Below, one piece after another: positions 7,850 through 11,094 of a stretch of DNA of 22,206 nt. Numbering within the stretch: the stretch's first letter is position 1; every line of letters begins with the position of its first letter. This stretch comes from a virus: IMG/VR virus record IMGVR_UViG_3300044712_000831, positions 1-22,206 of that record; one strand, written 5' to 3'. Below the pieces are notes generated by a model that saw nothing but the letters and a program-made list of their open reading frames with translations, was not told the origin of the DNA and searched no databases. The translations under genes and the position numbers were made by a program.

Positions 7850-8088
7850 AGGTGCAAATCCTCCTCGCCGGATTCATCCACCCCGATCACCGCGCCCAAC
7901 TGTTCGCAAGCGTCATAGGTACGCTCAACGATGCCCTGAACGCGCGCCTTCTCCTCCAACGTCAGCGCCGCCGCCACCTTGAGGCCGTCCACCTCGGCGG
8001 CGAGATCGAGCGATGACTTGATGAGCACGGCGACTTTCTGGTGATGACACGGATGCCCGCAAGGTGCGTGATGTGGCTCACAGTTCAT
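7846..8088 (-). CDS. Hypothetical protein with Cys/His-rich N-terminus, 80 aa
   Basis: The product starts MNCEPHHAPCGHPCHHQK, with three Cys and five His in the first 16 residues, which could bind a metal. The rest is helical and acidic (LDLAAEVDGLKVAAALTLEE) and ends in EESGEEDLHL-like acidic residues. Both ends overlap neighbours by four bases. The family is not recognised. Confidence 0.68.
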   Translation of the reverse strand: MNCEPHHAPCGHPCHHQKVAVLIKSSLDLAAEVDGLKVAAALTLEEKARVQGIVERTYDACEQLGAVIGVDESGEEDLHL

Positions 8089-8513
8089 AAGATCACCTCG
8101 GCGGTCTTCTCTTTGAGAGCGTCAGCCAGCATTTCTCTGGTTATATCGTCAGACTCAAAATCTAGGTCGATGATGTGATGCTCCGGGAGCTGAAGGAATA
8201 TCGTCTTCTGCTTGTAATGCTTTTCGTCGCTCAGCGTTATGCGTCCACCTTGGGTGGCTATCAGCGCGCCCAGCATATCGAAGACGCGTTGCAGTCCAGC
8301 CGCTCTCTGGTAGATGATGATTCGGTAGTCAATCTGCGTCGGTGTGTAGTGCGCATGCACGACGAGGCAAGGGTGGTTGGCTATGTTTGCATCGCGCAGC
8401 AGGTTTGCTAATTGCTCAATCATGTCCGCAGTAGCACGGTTGGCATTCATCACGTTCATGGTGCTGATGAAGCTGCTAGTTATTGTTGATACTTCGGCTT
8501 CAAATAAGCTCAT
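8085..8513 (-). CDS. Hypothetical protein, 142 aa
   Basis: It begins MSLFEAEVSTITSSFISTMN, with AGGGTGA upstream as a plausible binding site and an ATGA overlap with the recombinase stop. It looks like an alpha/beta protein (HPCLVVHAHYTPTQIDYRII, then KTIFLQLPEHHIIDLDFESD). Base composition is more AT-rich than the recombinase gene. I do not recognise a family or motif. Confidence 0.7.
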   Translation of the reverse strand: MSLFEAEVSTITSSFISTMNVMNANRATADMIEQLANLLRDANIANHPCLVVHAHYTPTQIDYRIIIYQRAAGLQRVFDMLGALIATQGGRITLSDEKHYKQKTIFLQLPEHHIIDLDFESDDITREMLADALKEKTAEVIL

Positions 8514-9244
8514 GCTGTCACCCTCCCTTCAAACGCCTTCCGCAACCCCGCAACCCGCACCCGCGGCTTACCATGCACCTTCCCGTCCACCTCGCGCATC
8601 GCCGCCGCCATCTCCTCGCGGTCTACCTTGGTATAAATCTCCGTGCTGCGCCGCGAAATCTGCCCAAGACGAGCCTGCACAATGCGAAGCGGGTCGGTGC
8701 ATTCAGAGGTCGCCACAATGTTTTTCGCATGCGTATGGCGGAACCAGTGCGGAGAAACCCCCTCCGGCAAACCCGCCTGCCGCGCCCAAAACGCCACCCG
8801 CAGCTCAAACGCCCGCACCGTCATCGCCTTGCCGCCCGCCACGCTCCGGCGCGAAACAATCAGCGCCTCATTCACCCCGGCACCCTCGCGCAGTGAAAGT
8901 ATCGCCAGCAACGCCTCGCGCACCGACTTGGTGAGATACACCGACAAATCCGCCGCCACCGCCGCCACAGGCTTATCGCCCGACTTCGCCTTGCCGCGCA
9001 CCGACTTCTTGCGGTGCTCCTTCGGCACAAACAAATAGCCGGACTGCAAAGCATCCGCCGCATCAGCGCAAGACACCGCCAAACACTCCCCGACGCGCAT
9101 CCCGCTGCCGATCAGCAACTGACACACCGCCGCATCGCGCCGCGCAATCGGGCTGGAAAACTGCTTGATCGTGGAGAGCAGCTTGCGCTGCTCATCCAAG
9201 GTCAGAAACCGCTTAAAAACAAAATCCTCATGAGGACTATTCAT
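8510..9244 (-). CDS. Tyrosine recombinase, catalytic domain only
   Basis: A 244-residue protein of the tyrosine recombinase/integrase family, which breaks and rejoins DNA through a phosphotyrosine. Visible active-site residues are Arg50 in SGMRVGE, a likely beta-hairpin Lys in KEHRKKSVRGKAKSG, His166-x2-Arg169 in PHWFRHTHAKN, and Tyr204 in STEIYTKVD. The position usually held by His/Trp in LGH is Gln195 (ARLGQISRRS). The protein starts almost at the catalytic domain, so the N-terminal SAM-like core-binding domain is missing. Compact recombinases like this are known in proteobacterial prophages. The start is ATG 9244, preceded by GGAG. It sits inside the early operon with no recognisable attP beside it, so integration, dimer resolution and a DNA-processing role all remain possible. 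Confidence 0.88.
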   Translation of the reverse strand: MNSPHEDFVFKRFLTLDEQRKLLSTIKQFSSPIARRDAAVCQLLIGSGMRVGECLAVSCADAADALQSGYLFVPKEHRKKSVRGKAKSGDKPVAAVAADLSVYLTKSVREALLAILSLREGAGVNEALIVSRRSVAGGKAMTVRAFELRVAFWARQAGLPEGVSPHWFRHTHAKNIVATSECTDPLRIVQARLGQISRRSTEIYTKVDREEMAAAMREVDGKVHGKPRVRVAGLRKAFEGRVTA

Positions 9245-9270: not shown

Positions 9271-9393
9271 CTACCAACGGCTGCCGATCAACAGCAACAC
9301 CCCCAAACAACACACCACACCCACCACCAGCGACCCCACCAAATCCGCCCGCTCATCCGGCGATAGGGATAACCACCAAGCCGGCGCTCTCAT
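9271..9393 (-). CDS. Tiny single-pass membrane peptide, 40 aa
   Basis: A 40-codon ORF in the gap between the recombinase and the 65-aa gene. It has AAGGA eight bases before ATG 9393 and stops with TAG at 9273-9271. The peptide has an amphipathic start (WWLSLSPDERADL) and one hydrophobic helix (about residues 19-36, VGSLVVGVVCCLGVLLLIG), ending SRW. The ribosome binding site and the clean membrane helix support translation. The function is unknown. Confidence 0.5.
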   Translation of the reverse strand: MRAPAWWLSLSPDERADLVGSLVVGVVCCLGVLLLIGSRW

Positions 9394-9409
9394 ACACATT
9401 CCTTCACGG

Positions 9410-9607
9410 CTATTTAGACGAACTGGATTGACTGACGCGGCCGTTAACGCACGGCTTCCCGCCGCTCAGCAAGCGGGCTTCCAGCTCGGGGCGAAACACA
9501 TTGATAAACGCGCGGCTAATGCTGACCTGCTCGCCAGGCTGCAAATTGTCGGAAAGGGTTGTAATGCCGCGCTTGGACAAAGAAGAGGGGGCAGGGCGAA
9601 AGCTCAC
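9410..9607 (-). CDS. Hypothetical protein, 65 aa
   Basis: It starts with GTG at 9607, which overlaps the stop of the cII-like gene (GTGA) and has a strong GGAGGTG site upstream. The product begins VSFRPAPSSLSKRGITTLS, with a middle segment QVSISRAFINVFRPELEARLL and a Ser-rich end. Coupling to cII argues it is real; no family is recognised. Confidence 0.6.
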   Translation of the reverse strand: MSFRPAPSSLSKRGITTLSDNLQPGEQVSISRAFINVFRPELEARLLSGGKPCVNGRVSQSSSSK

Positions 9608-10077
9608 TTGGCACCTCCCGACATCTCTTTCATACGCACCAAACCTTCAAGAATGGCCGCAATCCACTCGTGCGCCTCTTTCTCGATAGCGGTGAACTCA
9701 TCCGCGCTGATCGAATCGTCTTTCTCAAGAGACTGATGCAGCACACGGTAAAAATCACCGCCCTCATGCTCGATCTTGAGGATGTGCAACATCAACGTAT
9801 CGGTGGATAAACTGGAAAGATCGGGCAGCTCGACATGAGCGCCGCCGACAGTACGGCTGAATGCCTGAGCGATGCGCTTATCGCCGGTGAGCAGTGTCGC
9901 CAGAACGAGATCGCGCACGGTAGGCTTATTGTGGTTGTTCTCGTTTTCGTTTGAATTGCACTTGTTGTACAGCGTGCCGCGCGACATGCTCATCATCGCG
10001 GCAAGCTTATCCACGCCGAAATCAAAAACCACGTCATGGAAAGCCTGCTGCACATCCATAGGGAATTGCTGGCCCAT
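9604..10077 (-). CDS. Phage CII-family transcriptional regulator (CP76-like)
   Basis: A 157-residue protein of the phage regulatory CII / CP76 family. The N-terminal DNA-binding region includes FHDVVFDFGVDKLAAMMSM followed by SRGTLYNKCN; the phrase KPTVRDLVLATLLTGDKRI is typical of the family, and the C-terminal helices (EFTAIEKEAHEWIAAILEGL) complete it. It is second in the leftward early operon after cro, the place of cII in lambdoid phages, and probably tilts the lysis-lysogeny choice. Its ribosome binding site (GGAGGGT, seven bases before ATG 10077) lies in the 3' arm of a strong predicted hairpin at 10085-10120, so translation is probably controlled by RNA structure (inference). Confidence 0.88.
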   Translation of the reverse strand: MGQQFPMDVQQAFHDVVFDFGVDKLAAMMSMSRGTLYNKCNSNENENNHNKPTVRDLVLATLLTGDKRIAQAFSRTVGGAHVELPDLSSLSTDTLMLHILKIEHEGGDFYRVLHQSLEKDDSISADEFTAIEKEAHEWIAAILEGLVRMKEMSGGAK

Positions 10078-10084
10078 CTGTGAA

Positions 10085-10120
10085 ACCCTCCAAAAAGTTA
10101 ACCTTTTGCTGCTGGAGGGT
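10085..10120 (-). promoter_or_regulatory. Hairpin burying the cII ribosome binding site
   Basis: In the leftward transcript, ACCCUCCA (10120-10113) pairs perfectly with UGGAGGGU (10092-10085), which is the cII Shine-Dalgarno. Inside, AAAAG (10107-10103) pairs with CUUUU (10097-10093) around a GUUAA loop, leaving only a five-base GCAGC bulge. That gives 8+5 base pairs ending eight bases before the start codon. No U-run follows, so it is not a simple terminator. Translational control is inferred from the structure. Confidence 0.7.
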
Positions 10121-10126
10121 GCGGGG

Positions 10127-10160
10127 GATACTGCGAACGCCTAACAAGCGAGCGAGTATC
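10127..10160 (-). promoter_or_regulatory. Second hairpin of the cro-cII leader
   Basis: GATACT (10127-10132) and AGTATC (10155-10160) form a 6-bp perfect outer stem. CG/CG and CGC/GCG continue it around the loop at 10141-10147 with small internal bulges. It is weaker than its two neighbours. It could be a spacer element or part of an alternative fold of the leader. Confidence 0.4.
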
Positions 10161-10174
10161 ACGAGCACCCGAAT

Positions 10175-10200
10175 CATCCCTGCACTCCAATGCAGGGATG
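10175..10200 (-). promoter_or_regulatory. Perfect 10-bp hairpin just after cro
   Basis: CATCCCTGCA (10175-10184) and TGCAGGGATG (10191-10200) are perfect inverted repeats around a six-base loop. In the leftward RNA the loop reads UUGGAG, the same six bases as the start of the cII ribosome binding region, so it is complementary to the CUCCA of the anti-SD arm at 10085-10120. No T-run follows. The position matches that of nutR/tR1 in lambda, but no boxA was found. Confidence 0.55.
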
Positions 10201-10207
10201 GTCATCC

Positions 10208-10223
10208 GTTAATTGTGCTTAAC
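10208..10223. promoter_or_regulatory. Outlying operator-like site at the 3' end of cro
   Basis: GTTAAT-TGTG-CTTAAC matches the switch operator consensus (GTTAAG-N4-CTTAAC) at 11 of 12 positions and overlaps the cro stop codon. It lies about 200 bp from the main array. Binding by the repressor or Cro is inference. Confidence 0.45.
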
Positions 10224-10391
10224 AGCTGCTGATGAGACCTTTAGCTTCCCCTTCGTCAAAACCTCTAATTGATATGCTCTTCCTTCTGGAACGAGATCAC
10301 CCCATAAGTACACGGCATGTCTAGTTATTCCCAACTTATTGGCAAGTCGAGTTACCGATCCAAAATGATTAATTGCATCTTTAGTTTTCAT
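10209..10391 (-). CDS. cro: Cro-like repressor
   Basis: A 60-residue protein with a single helix-turn-helix. It starts MKTKDAINHFGSVTRLANKL, with the recognition part GITRHAVYLWGDLVPEGRAY, which closely fits the short Cro family of proteobacterial phages (YQLEVLTKGKLKV). It is the first gene of the leftward early operon, divergent from the repressor gene, with the operators between them. The predicted transcription start near 10414 gives a leader of about 23 bases without a clear ribosome binding site. It probably binds the same operators and shuts off the repressor gene. Confidence 0.88.
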   Translation of the reverse strand: MKTKDAINHFGSVTRLANKLGITRHAVYLWGDLVPEGRAYQLEVLTKGKLKVSSAAVKHN

Positions 10392-10398
10392 TTGATTT

Positions 10399-10414
10399 GT
10401 TAAGTTTGCTTTAC
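10399..10414. promoter_or_regulatory. Operator A of the switch
   Basis: GTTAAG-TTTG-CTTTAC, one mismatch from the palindrome GTTAAG-N4-CTTAAC. It overlaps the predicted start of the leftward transcript, in front of cro. Confidence 0.65.
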
Positions 10415-10420
10415 GGATGA

Positions 10421-10450
10421 ATGTTAAGTGAGCTTAACATTATGTGTCAA
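10421..10450 (-). promoter_or_regulatory. Leftward early promoter (PR-like)
   Basis: On the minus strand there is a perfect -35 TTGACA at 10450-10445, an 18-bp spacer, and a -10 TAACAT (four of six consensus bases) at 10426-10421, placing transcription start near 10414. Operator B lies over the spacer and -10 and operator D over the -35, so a bound repressor would block polymerase. It drives cro and the early operon. Confidence 0.65.
10423..10438. promoter_or_regulatory. Operator B of the switch (perfect palindrome)
   Basis: GTTAAG-TGAG-CTTAAC, both half-sites perfect. It sits over the -10 and spacer of the leftward promoter. Centre-to-centre it is 24 bp from operator A and 23 bp from operator D. 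Confidence 0.75.
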
Positions 10451-10461
10451 GCATATTTAAC
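10446..10461. promoter_or_regulatory. Operator D of the switch (weaker)
   Basis: GTCAAG-CATA-TTTAAC, one mismatch in each half-site. It overlaps the -35 box of the leftward promoter. Its centre is 23 bp from B and 21 bp from C, keeping the phase of the array. Confidence 0.5.
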
Positions 10462-10466
10462 GCATA

Positions 10467-10482
10467 TGTAAGTAGACTTAAC
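10467..10482. promoter_or_regulatory. Operator C of the switch
   Basis: TGTAAG-TAGA-CTTAAC, one perfect half-site and one with two mismatches, ending three bases before the repressor ATG. Occupancy here would probably block the repressor's own gene (autoregulation). Confidence 0.55.
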
Positions 10483-10485
10483 AAA

Positions 10486-10854
10486 ATGACAAATACTTCT
10501 GAGCGATTAGTTGAACGACTTAAAGAAACAGGAATGCAGCAATCTGACCTAGTTAGAGCTGCAAAAGTAAGTCGTGCAGCCGTATCTGGGTGGATTAGTG
10601 GAGAAACAAAGGAAATAAAACCTCGCCATTTATTTCATGTTGCGCGGGCGCTAGGAGTAGATCCTGAATGGTTATCAACAGGGAATGGAGAGAAGTTCCA
10701 ATCGATTACAAATTCAGAAAAAATAAATAAATCATATGTAGCTAGAGAAAAAGCTGGAAATTATTTAATAAATGAAGAAAAGCGTGAGTTGATAGCGATG
10801 ATCGAATCAATGCCGGAATCAAAAATACGCGCATTGCTTGAGATATTTAAATGA
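10486..10854 (+). CDS. Short CI-like repressor, no S24 self-cleavage domain
   Basis: The chosen start is ATG 10486 (MTNTSERLVERLKETG); an in-frame GTG at 10444 is rejected because it would place the operators inside the gene. The 122-residue product has a classical XRE helix-turn-helix at about residues 17-45 (MQQSDLVRAAKVSRAAVSGW), then the family phrase HLFHVARALGVDPEWLSTG. A short helical C-terminus (about 90-122, EEKRELIAMIESMPESKIR) probably mediates dimerisation. The LexA/CI-type peptidase (Ser/Lys dyad and Ala-Gly cleavage site) is absent. There is no Shine-Dalgarno before the start, so the mRNA may be leaderless, as for lambda cI. It is divergent from cro and is the likely prophage repressor. 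Confidence 0.85.
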   Translation: MTNTSERLVERLKETGMQQSDLVRAAKVSRAAVSGWISGETKEIKPRHLFHVARALGVDPEWLSTGNGEKFQSITNSEKINKSYVAREKAGNYLINEEKRELIAMIESMPESKIRALLEIFK

Positions 10855-10863
10855 GGAGAGTTA

Positions 10864-11094
10864 ATGCTTGAATTCAGATGTATCTGCTGCGAAAAGACTT
10901 CTCCGCATAGCATCAACTGGGATGTGTCCGGTGAAATCGCAACTGTATATACTCAATGTGTATCTTGTGGAGCTGCGGGAATAAGCTCGATAGGGAAAGA
11001 AATTTATCGTGCGCCTAACAGCGCGAGAATCCCCAAAGATTTTCAGATAGCGATGTTAAACGCCGTCTCTATTGCGCTTAGTCATGCCCATTGA
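10864..11094 (+). CDS. Small Cys-rich protein downstream of repressor, 76 aa
   Basis: It begins MLEFRCICCEKTSPHSINWD, nine bases after the repressor stop, with GGAGAG as ribosome binding site. Cys6, Cys8, Cys9 and the later CVSC suggest a zinc-ribbon fold. The second half is helical (PKDFQIAMLNAVSIALSHAH). Expressed with the repressor, it would be made in the lysogen. No specific family is recognised; candidate roles such as immunity or host interaction are speculation. Its 3' end overlaps the end of the minus-strand ORF at 11056. Confidence 0.65.
   Translation: MLEFRCICCEKTSPHSINWDVSGEIATVYTQCVSCGAAGISSIGKEIYRAPNSARIPKDFQIAMLNAVSIALSHAH

Follow-up and report, generated by a model that had tools for sequence, protein, structure and literature searches.

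The window, by which is meant the whole stretch of viral DNA analysed here (22,206 nucleotides of IMG/VR record IMGVR_UViG_3300044712_000831), contains a cro-cII region whose genes and features are listed in Table 1. The product of the gene labelled cII matches PF06892 far above threshold (hmmscan E=1.6e-21; bit score 77, cut-off 26) and also matches phrog_101, a family of CII-like activators; PF06892 was the only family reported by hmmscan, so that the lambda CII family did not appear among the matches. The "cII-type" label of the original prediction, which had been made from the sequence of the window, is therefore apt in the sense of the CII family of phage 186 but not in that of lambda CII. 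The CI-like ORF, whose true start probably lies inside the interval given in the table, diverges from cro-cII and is oriented in the direction in which the transcript of a predicted pE-like promoter (see below) would read; a repressor-type gene on the opposite strand is what a promoter of the 186 pE type would lead one to expect.

Table 1. Genes and features, observed or predicted, of the cro-cII region (positions in the window)
Feature	Position	Strand	Remarks
cII-like regulator gene, 157 aa	9604..10077	-	PF06892 Phage_CP76 (phage 186 CII family)
Predicted CII operator	10078..10104	.	AGGTTAA-N13-TTCACAG on the minus strand; brackets the SD; fixed N13 spacing
SD-closing hairpin	10085..10120	-	8 bp ACCCUCCA:UGGAGGGU and 5 bp AAAAG:CUUUU
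Shine-Dalgarno (SD) GGAGGG, strand S3	10086..10091	-	in the 3' arm of the SD-closing hairpin
Shared strand S2, GCACCC	10117..10122	-	alternative partners: S1 or, when extended by 10116-10113, the SD
Predicted -10 GATACT of a pE-like establishment promoter	10127..10132	+	predicted TSS ~10139-10141
P2 hairpin, GATACT...AGTATC	10127..10160	-	between S1 and S2
Anti-sequestering strand S1, GGGTGC (RNA GGGUGC)	10165..10170	-	competes with the SD for S2
Hairpin I, CATCCCTGCA..TGCAGGGATG	10175..10200	-	follows the cro stop closely, where lambda has tR1
cro-like gene	10209..10391	-	PF14549 P22_Cro; followed by cII
PR-like promoter TTGACA-18-TAACAT	10421..10450	-	upstream of cro; consensus scan 10/12
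CI-like HTH repressor ORF	10444..10854	+	HTH_3, phrog_4/phrog_8 repressor matches

The number of promoter-like sites found near cro-cII by consensus scan is not above chance, and the interval 9300-11000 holds no intrinsic terminator of the kind in which a GC hairpin is followed by a U-tract. Hairpin I is the only perfect stem of at least 10 bp in the window and lacks a U-tract; its counterparts have variable stems, with GTTG/GTTA as the apical loop in most relatives and the reverse complement CCAAC/TAAC in others. Elsewhere on the minus strand, the ORF at 8085-8513 has an SD near 8526 (GGGAGGGTGACAGC before the ATG), and GGAGGGTG of its leader could pair along its full length with CACCCUCC of S2, a match that may be due to chance, both elements being SD-related.

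The SD-closing hairpin and its competing strand

With the cII start codon at 10077-10075 and the SD 8 nt before it, the SD lies, exactly as originally described, in the 3' arm of a two-part hairpin of an 8-bp and a 5-bp stem (minus strand, 10120-10085; ACCCTCCA-GCAGC-AAAAG-GTTAA-CTTTT-TGGAGGGT in minus-strand order; MFE -14.8 kcal/mol). Both of the stems that had been called stacked are there, but in the 5' strand they are parted by five bulged nucleotides, and only in the 3' strand are they contiguous. Of 2000 dinucleotide shuffles of 10125-10077, 98% fold less well than the native sequence (-9.7 +/- 2.4 vs -15.4 kcal/mol), and few candidate starts in the window have an SD region as inaccessible as that of cII (open fraction 0.10). 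One such hairpin could be produced by chance (p ~0.02); its conservation with compensatory changes hardly could.

Homologous leaders stand before PF06892 CII homologues at 24 loci, which are distributed over virus contigs and bacterial genomes of one order. The gene upstream of them varies: it is cro-like in the window, and is elsewhere a short ORF of RHH-like appearance (by eye) or a longer ORF. In L002 (2313-2633), L005 (2303-2620), L014 (3753-4082) and L017 (11871-12170), an opposite-strand ORF of ~100 aa, Arc/RHH-looking by eye, occupies the position of the divergent repressor and faces another short RHH-like ORF, which precedes the leader, so that an RHH-like pair replaces the CI/cro pair of the window.

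Of the 24 leaders, 18 are picked up by a sequence-only model, each directly before cII, and an RNA-model search of genomes returned only two members, both of them before cII as well. A class-level genome search returned the starting genome alone, and a scan of genome contigs with the CII-like protein gave no homologue. GenBank phages searched by tblastn likewise held no homologue of the protein, and blastn against phages and plasmids detected none of the leader. No Rfam covariance model matched the window or its relatives. Pattern scans yielded mostly chance hits with no relation to the leader, which were dropped once their flanks had been read.

Across an alignment of 13 of these sequences, 82% of the pairs of the SD helix are kept and 8 of its 13 pairs have changed on both sides (16 cells). 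The corresponding covariation score was reached by 0/500 shuffles, with far lower values for slid controls, and by 5/500 when a structure-free alignment of 18 sequences was used, while S2 forms stronger duplexes with its cognate SD than with non-cognate SDs (permutation p=1e-4, against p=0.55 for the unrelated strand pair 1:3); many of the leaders being related to one another, such permutation and shuffle figures overstate independence and are optimistic. The comparison of homologous leaders that had been proposed as a check of the hairpin is accordingly in its favour. Given the predicted sequestration of the SD and the covariation of its helix among homologues, cII translation is likely to be controlled by opening of the leader, as had been suggested, although of the triggers then named neither translation of an upstream ORF nor temperature is supported (see below).

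What the earlier reading left out is the competing strand S1, together with the likely operator and opposite-strand promoter. S1 lies ~45 nt upstream of S2, and the S1:S2 helix covaries at 3 of 5 pairs (2/500 shuffles), as scored on an alignment that was not fitted to S1:S2. Its competition with the SD is also apparent from folding: in a longer context the probability of the closed SD hairpin is ~0.6-0.8 with S1 and 1.0 without it, and the cost of opening the SD in the window, obtained here and in the truncation and masking calculations below by folding with unpaired constraints, is predicted to be 5-7 kcal/mol with S1 and 12-13 kcal/mol without it. Truncation of S1 raises this cost by >1 kcal/mol in 21/24 leaders, L060, L067 and L078 showing no effect of S1 on simple truncation; over 18 representatives, the best 9-nt truncation has an effect of 4.4 kcal/mol, compared to 1.4 kcal/mol in shuffled leaders (Wilcoxon p=4e-5). 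The two states are near balance, with P(S1:S2) at 0.3-0.6.

According to these folding models, the hairpin first noticed represents the closed form of a leader that has two states and whose RNA layer is probably bistable. In the transcript from PR, pairing of S1 with S2 would free the SD (on state) and pairing of S2 with the SD would close it (off state), from which we infer an effect on translation; since S1:S2 is transcribed first, new transcripts should begin in the on state.

Conserved half-sites and a predicted opposite-strand promoter

Comparison of the leaders also brings out elements that lie at fixed spacing. The most conserved columns of a gap-free alignment lie outside the stems. 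They are those of two half-sites, the first being (A)GGTTAA or its variant (A)GGTGAA and the second TTCACA, with a gap of exactly 13 bp in which the SD lies, and those of AGTATC, which stands 24-29 bases before the first half-site. The half-sites are 13 bp apart in 16/18 representatives, any other spacing being found in at most 3, and the window has a single operator site with zero mismatches (10104-10079). Strict 7-bp dyads at N13 are perfect in 186 only, and only some members are near perfect as inverted repeats, so the operator assignment rests on column conservation at a fixed spacing and not on perfect symmetry. The CII protein of 186 binds half-sites that are 20 bp apart centre to centre, and the 7-bp half-sites of the window have this same separation.

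On the opposite strand, an A2/T6 hexamer is found at a fixed offset in 24/24 leaders; at offset -29 +/- 1 it is present in 18/18 representatives, compared to a mean of 1.6 at other offsets. That the spacing stays constant while the sequence around it varies is more in keeping with a promoter and a protein-binding site than with an RNA loop. The positions left free by this DNA code are those taken up by S2, which lies in the -10/-35 spacer, and by the SD, which lies between the two half-sites.

From this arrangement we infer both protein binding and promoter activity. CII would bind the two half-sites that bracket the SD of its own gene and activate the opposite-strand promoter, a pE/PRE-like element predicted to read back through cro toward the repressor gene. 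On the strength of these sequence patterns, a DNA layer made of a CII operator and an opposite-strand pE-like promoter is very probably present, and the leader most likely overlaps a CII-activated establishment promoter that reads toward the repressor gene.

At two distant CII loci (L091 and L092), GCAGTATCC and the GGTTTCACACATG start are kept ~40-110 nt upstream of position 1500, in the absence of the S1/S2/SD-hairpin leader; these loci perhaps have the promoter without the RNA layer.

Proposed antisense feedback and competing explanations

The predicted pE start falls between S1 and S2, as a result of which pE RNA would be antisense to S1 and not to S2 or the SD; closure of cII translation by this antisense RNA is predicted for that reason. 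When the part of the window leader that is complementary to pE RNA was masked, the cost of opening the SD rose from 6.7 to 12.6 kcal/mol; masking S1 alone gave 12.0 kcal/mol, and masking hairpin I alone (6.8 kcal/mol) gave no rise. Over 20 leaders, masking by pE RNA added 5.4 kcal/mol on average and >1 kcal/mol in 18, and folding of the predicted pE RNA leaves most of its anti-S1 bases single-stranded. Activation by CII of a pE that reads toward the repressor gene is established for 186 (PMC8538670) and lambda (PMC5869508). CII made from PR would here act in the same direction and, once enough CII-driven pE RNA had accumulated to capture S1, S2 would switch to the SD and translation of cII would stop. 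The small RNA that had been suggested as a trigger may thus exist in the form of the antisense pE transcript. That CII limits its own translation through an antisense RNA from its own promoter is a tentative proposal, and one observation counts against it: in 186, a phage without this leader, transcriptional interference from active pE did not detectably alter the output of pR (PMC7708051).

As a whole, we favour, with moderate confidence, an explanation in which the stretch between cro and cII serves as a dual-coded control element, combining operator and promoter, RNA switch and feedback, with the operator, the -10 and both RNA helices interleaved within ~100 bp.

The RNA switch could also operate in cis, together with the DNA layer and without antisense feedback, either as a kinetic timer that is on while the transcript is nascent and off at equilibrium, or in response to a protein that binds P2. 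This is possible though doubtful: S1:S2 can indeed form ahead of SD synthesis, and the balance between the two states described above suits a switch of this sort, but with the -10 and the half-sites assigned to the DNA layer no conserved site for a ligand stands out, and a purely cis-acting switch gives no reason why the predicted pE start should lie between S1 and S2 in every leader.

Somewhat less plausible, and on the whole unlikely, is an explanation confined to DNA, in which a 186-type operator and pE account for the conservation, while the RNA hairpins arise incidentally where a GC-rich spacer adjoins a G-rich SD. The best-conserved bases are those of the operator and the -10, at fixed spacing, and pE of 186 works without a leader hairpin; in single leaders, S2/SD pairing is often not significant, being no better than in shuffles. 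SDs are G-rich and S2 strands C-rich by composition, and a GC-rich promoter spacer alone could pair with the SD. What this leaves unaccounted for are the compensatory changes in S2:SD and S1:S2, located at positions that the DNA code leaves free, the advantage of cognate over non-cognate pairing, and an S1 effect far above that of shuffles.

It is improbable that the leader gives rise to a C4-type antisense RNA, with the S1-P2-S2 domain being excised and acting in trans on the cII RBS as in P1/P7. The leader shares with C4 (RF01695) its place in a phage immunity region and the order of the transcript, in which a structured RNA precedes an RBS that it matches and can pair with, and the S1-P2-S2 domain begins with GGGTG/GGTGG, like the processed end of C4; however, RF01695 has no match in the window (even at E<=10) or in the relatives, against 68.8 bits for the P1 control, the SD complement is in a stem arm here and in a loop in C4, and C4 controls icd/ant whereas the leader of the window precedes a CII gene.

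Opening of the hairpin by translation of an upstream ORF, the first of the two unsupported triggers, is very improbable. One 35-codon frame does exist (10205-10098), beginning 3 nt after the cro stop and ending in the hairpin loop, but this sole fitting ORF is not conserved: it has no good SD, lacks an in-frame start codon in L005, L007 and others, matches no protein family, and lies downstream of genes that differ among the relatives. Separately, the QYP.HPP..KG end of the 10098-10205 (minus-strand) ORF recurs in frame in some relatives that have no start codon. An RNA thermometer is the least credible of all, for although the SD is inside a hairpin that becomes easier to open as the temperature rises, the cost declines gradually and by little (from 7.1 to 4.7 kcal/mol between 20 and 42 C), no FourU-type motif is present, and neither S1 nor the fixed spacing would be needed.

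Relation to known CII systems

Phage 186 (U32222 23400-23462) resembles the window in having a PF06892 CII, inverted half-sites with an inner spacing of 13 bp at the start of cII and an opposite-strand promoter toward cI: its annotated CII site (23435-23462) is ATGTTTG-N13-CAAACAT, and its pE, annotated on the opposite strand from 23400, has a candidate -10, TAAAGT, at offset -28 (-29 in the window). The two differ in the sequence of the half-sites, which are (A)GGTTAA/TTCACA in the window, and in the place of the operator, which lies within the start of the cII coding sequence in 186 and around the SD in the window. Moreover, only 30 nt separate apl from cII in 186, which consequently has no hairpin I, S1 or S2 leader; the RNA layer is hence not general for the CII family.

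Lambda, in turn, has a proposed stem-loop at the cII RBS, an overlapping opposite-strand pE (PRE) activated by CII, and a comparable gene order of cro - nutR/tR1 - cII (PMC5869508), so that the contrast with lambda cII is weaker than originally stated. An RBS stem-loop before cII with a nearby pE is in this respect already known (lambda, PMC5869508), as are an operator and promoter of the 186 kind. Lambda CII is an unrelated protein, and the stem-loop and pE of lambda overlap in a different way. To our knowledge, no three-strand competition has been described for the lambda cII leader. Mutually exclusive SD-sequestering and anti-sequestering helices are familiar from riboswitch-type platforms and from the alternative mRNA structures of lambda cIII; the window differs from these in that no ligand domain was identified and that the arms of the switch lie inside a predicted promoter and operator. 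For the phage group of the window, no description of a three-strand leader interleaved with operator and promoter was found in the literature searched.

The level of CII decides lysogeny in both lambda and 186. If the dual-coded reading is correct, an establishment promoter would directly limit its own activator by means of an operator, a promoter and an RNA switch contained in the same 100 bp, and the region would provide an example of a promoter and a folding RNA that share one sequence. The 186-type rule of half-site - N13 - half-site, with an opposite-strand -10 ~28-29 bp away, would moreover extend to phages and prophages beyond the enterobacterial 186 group.
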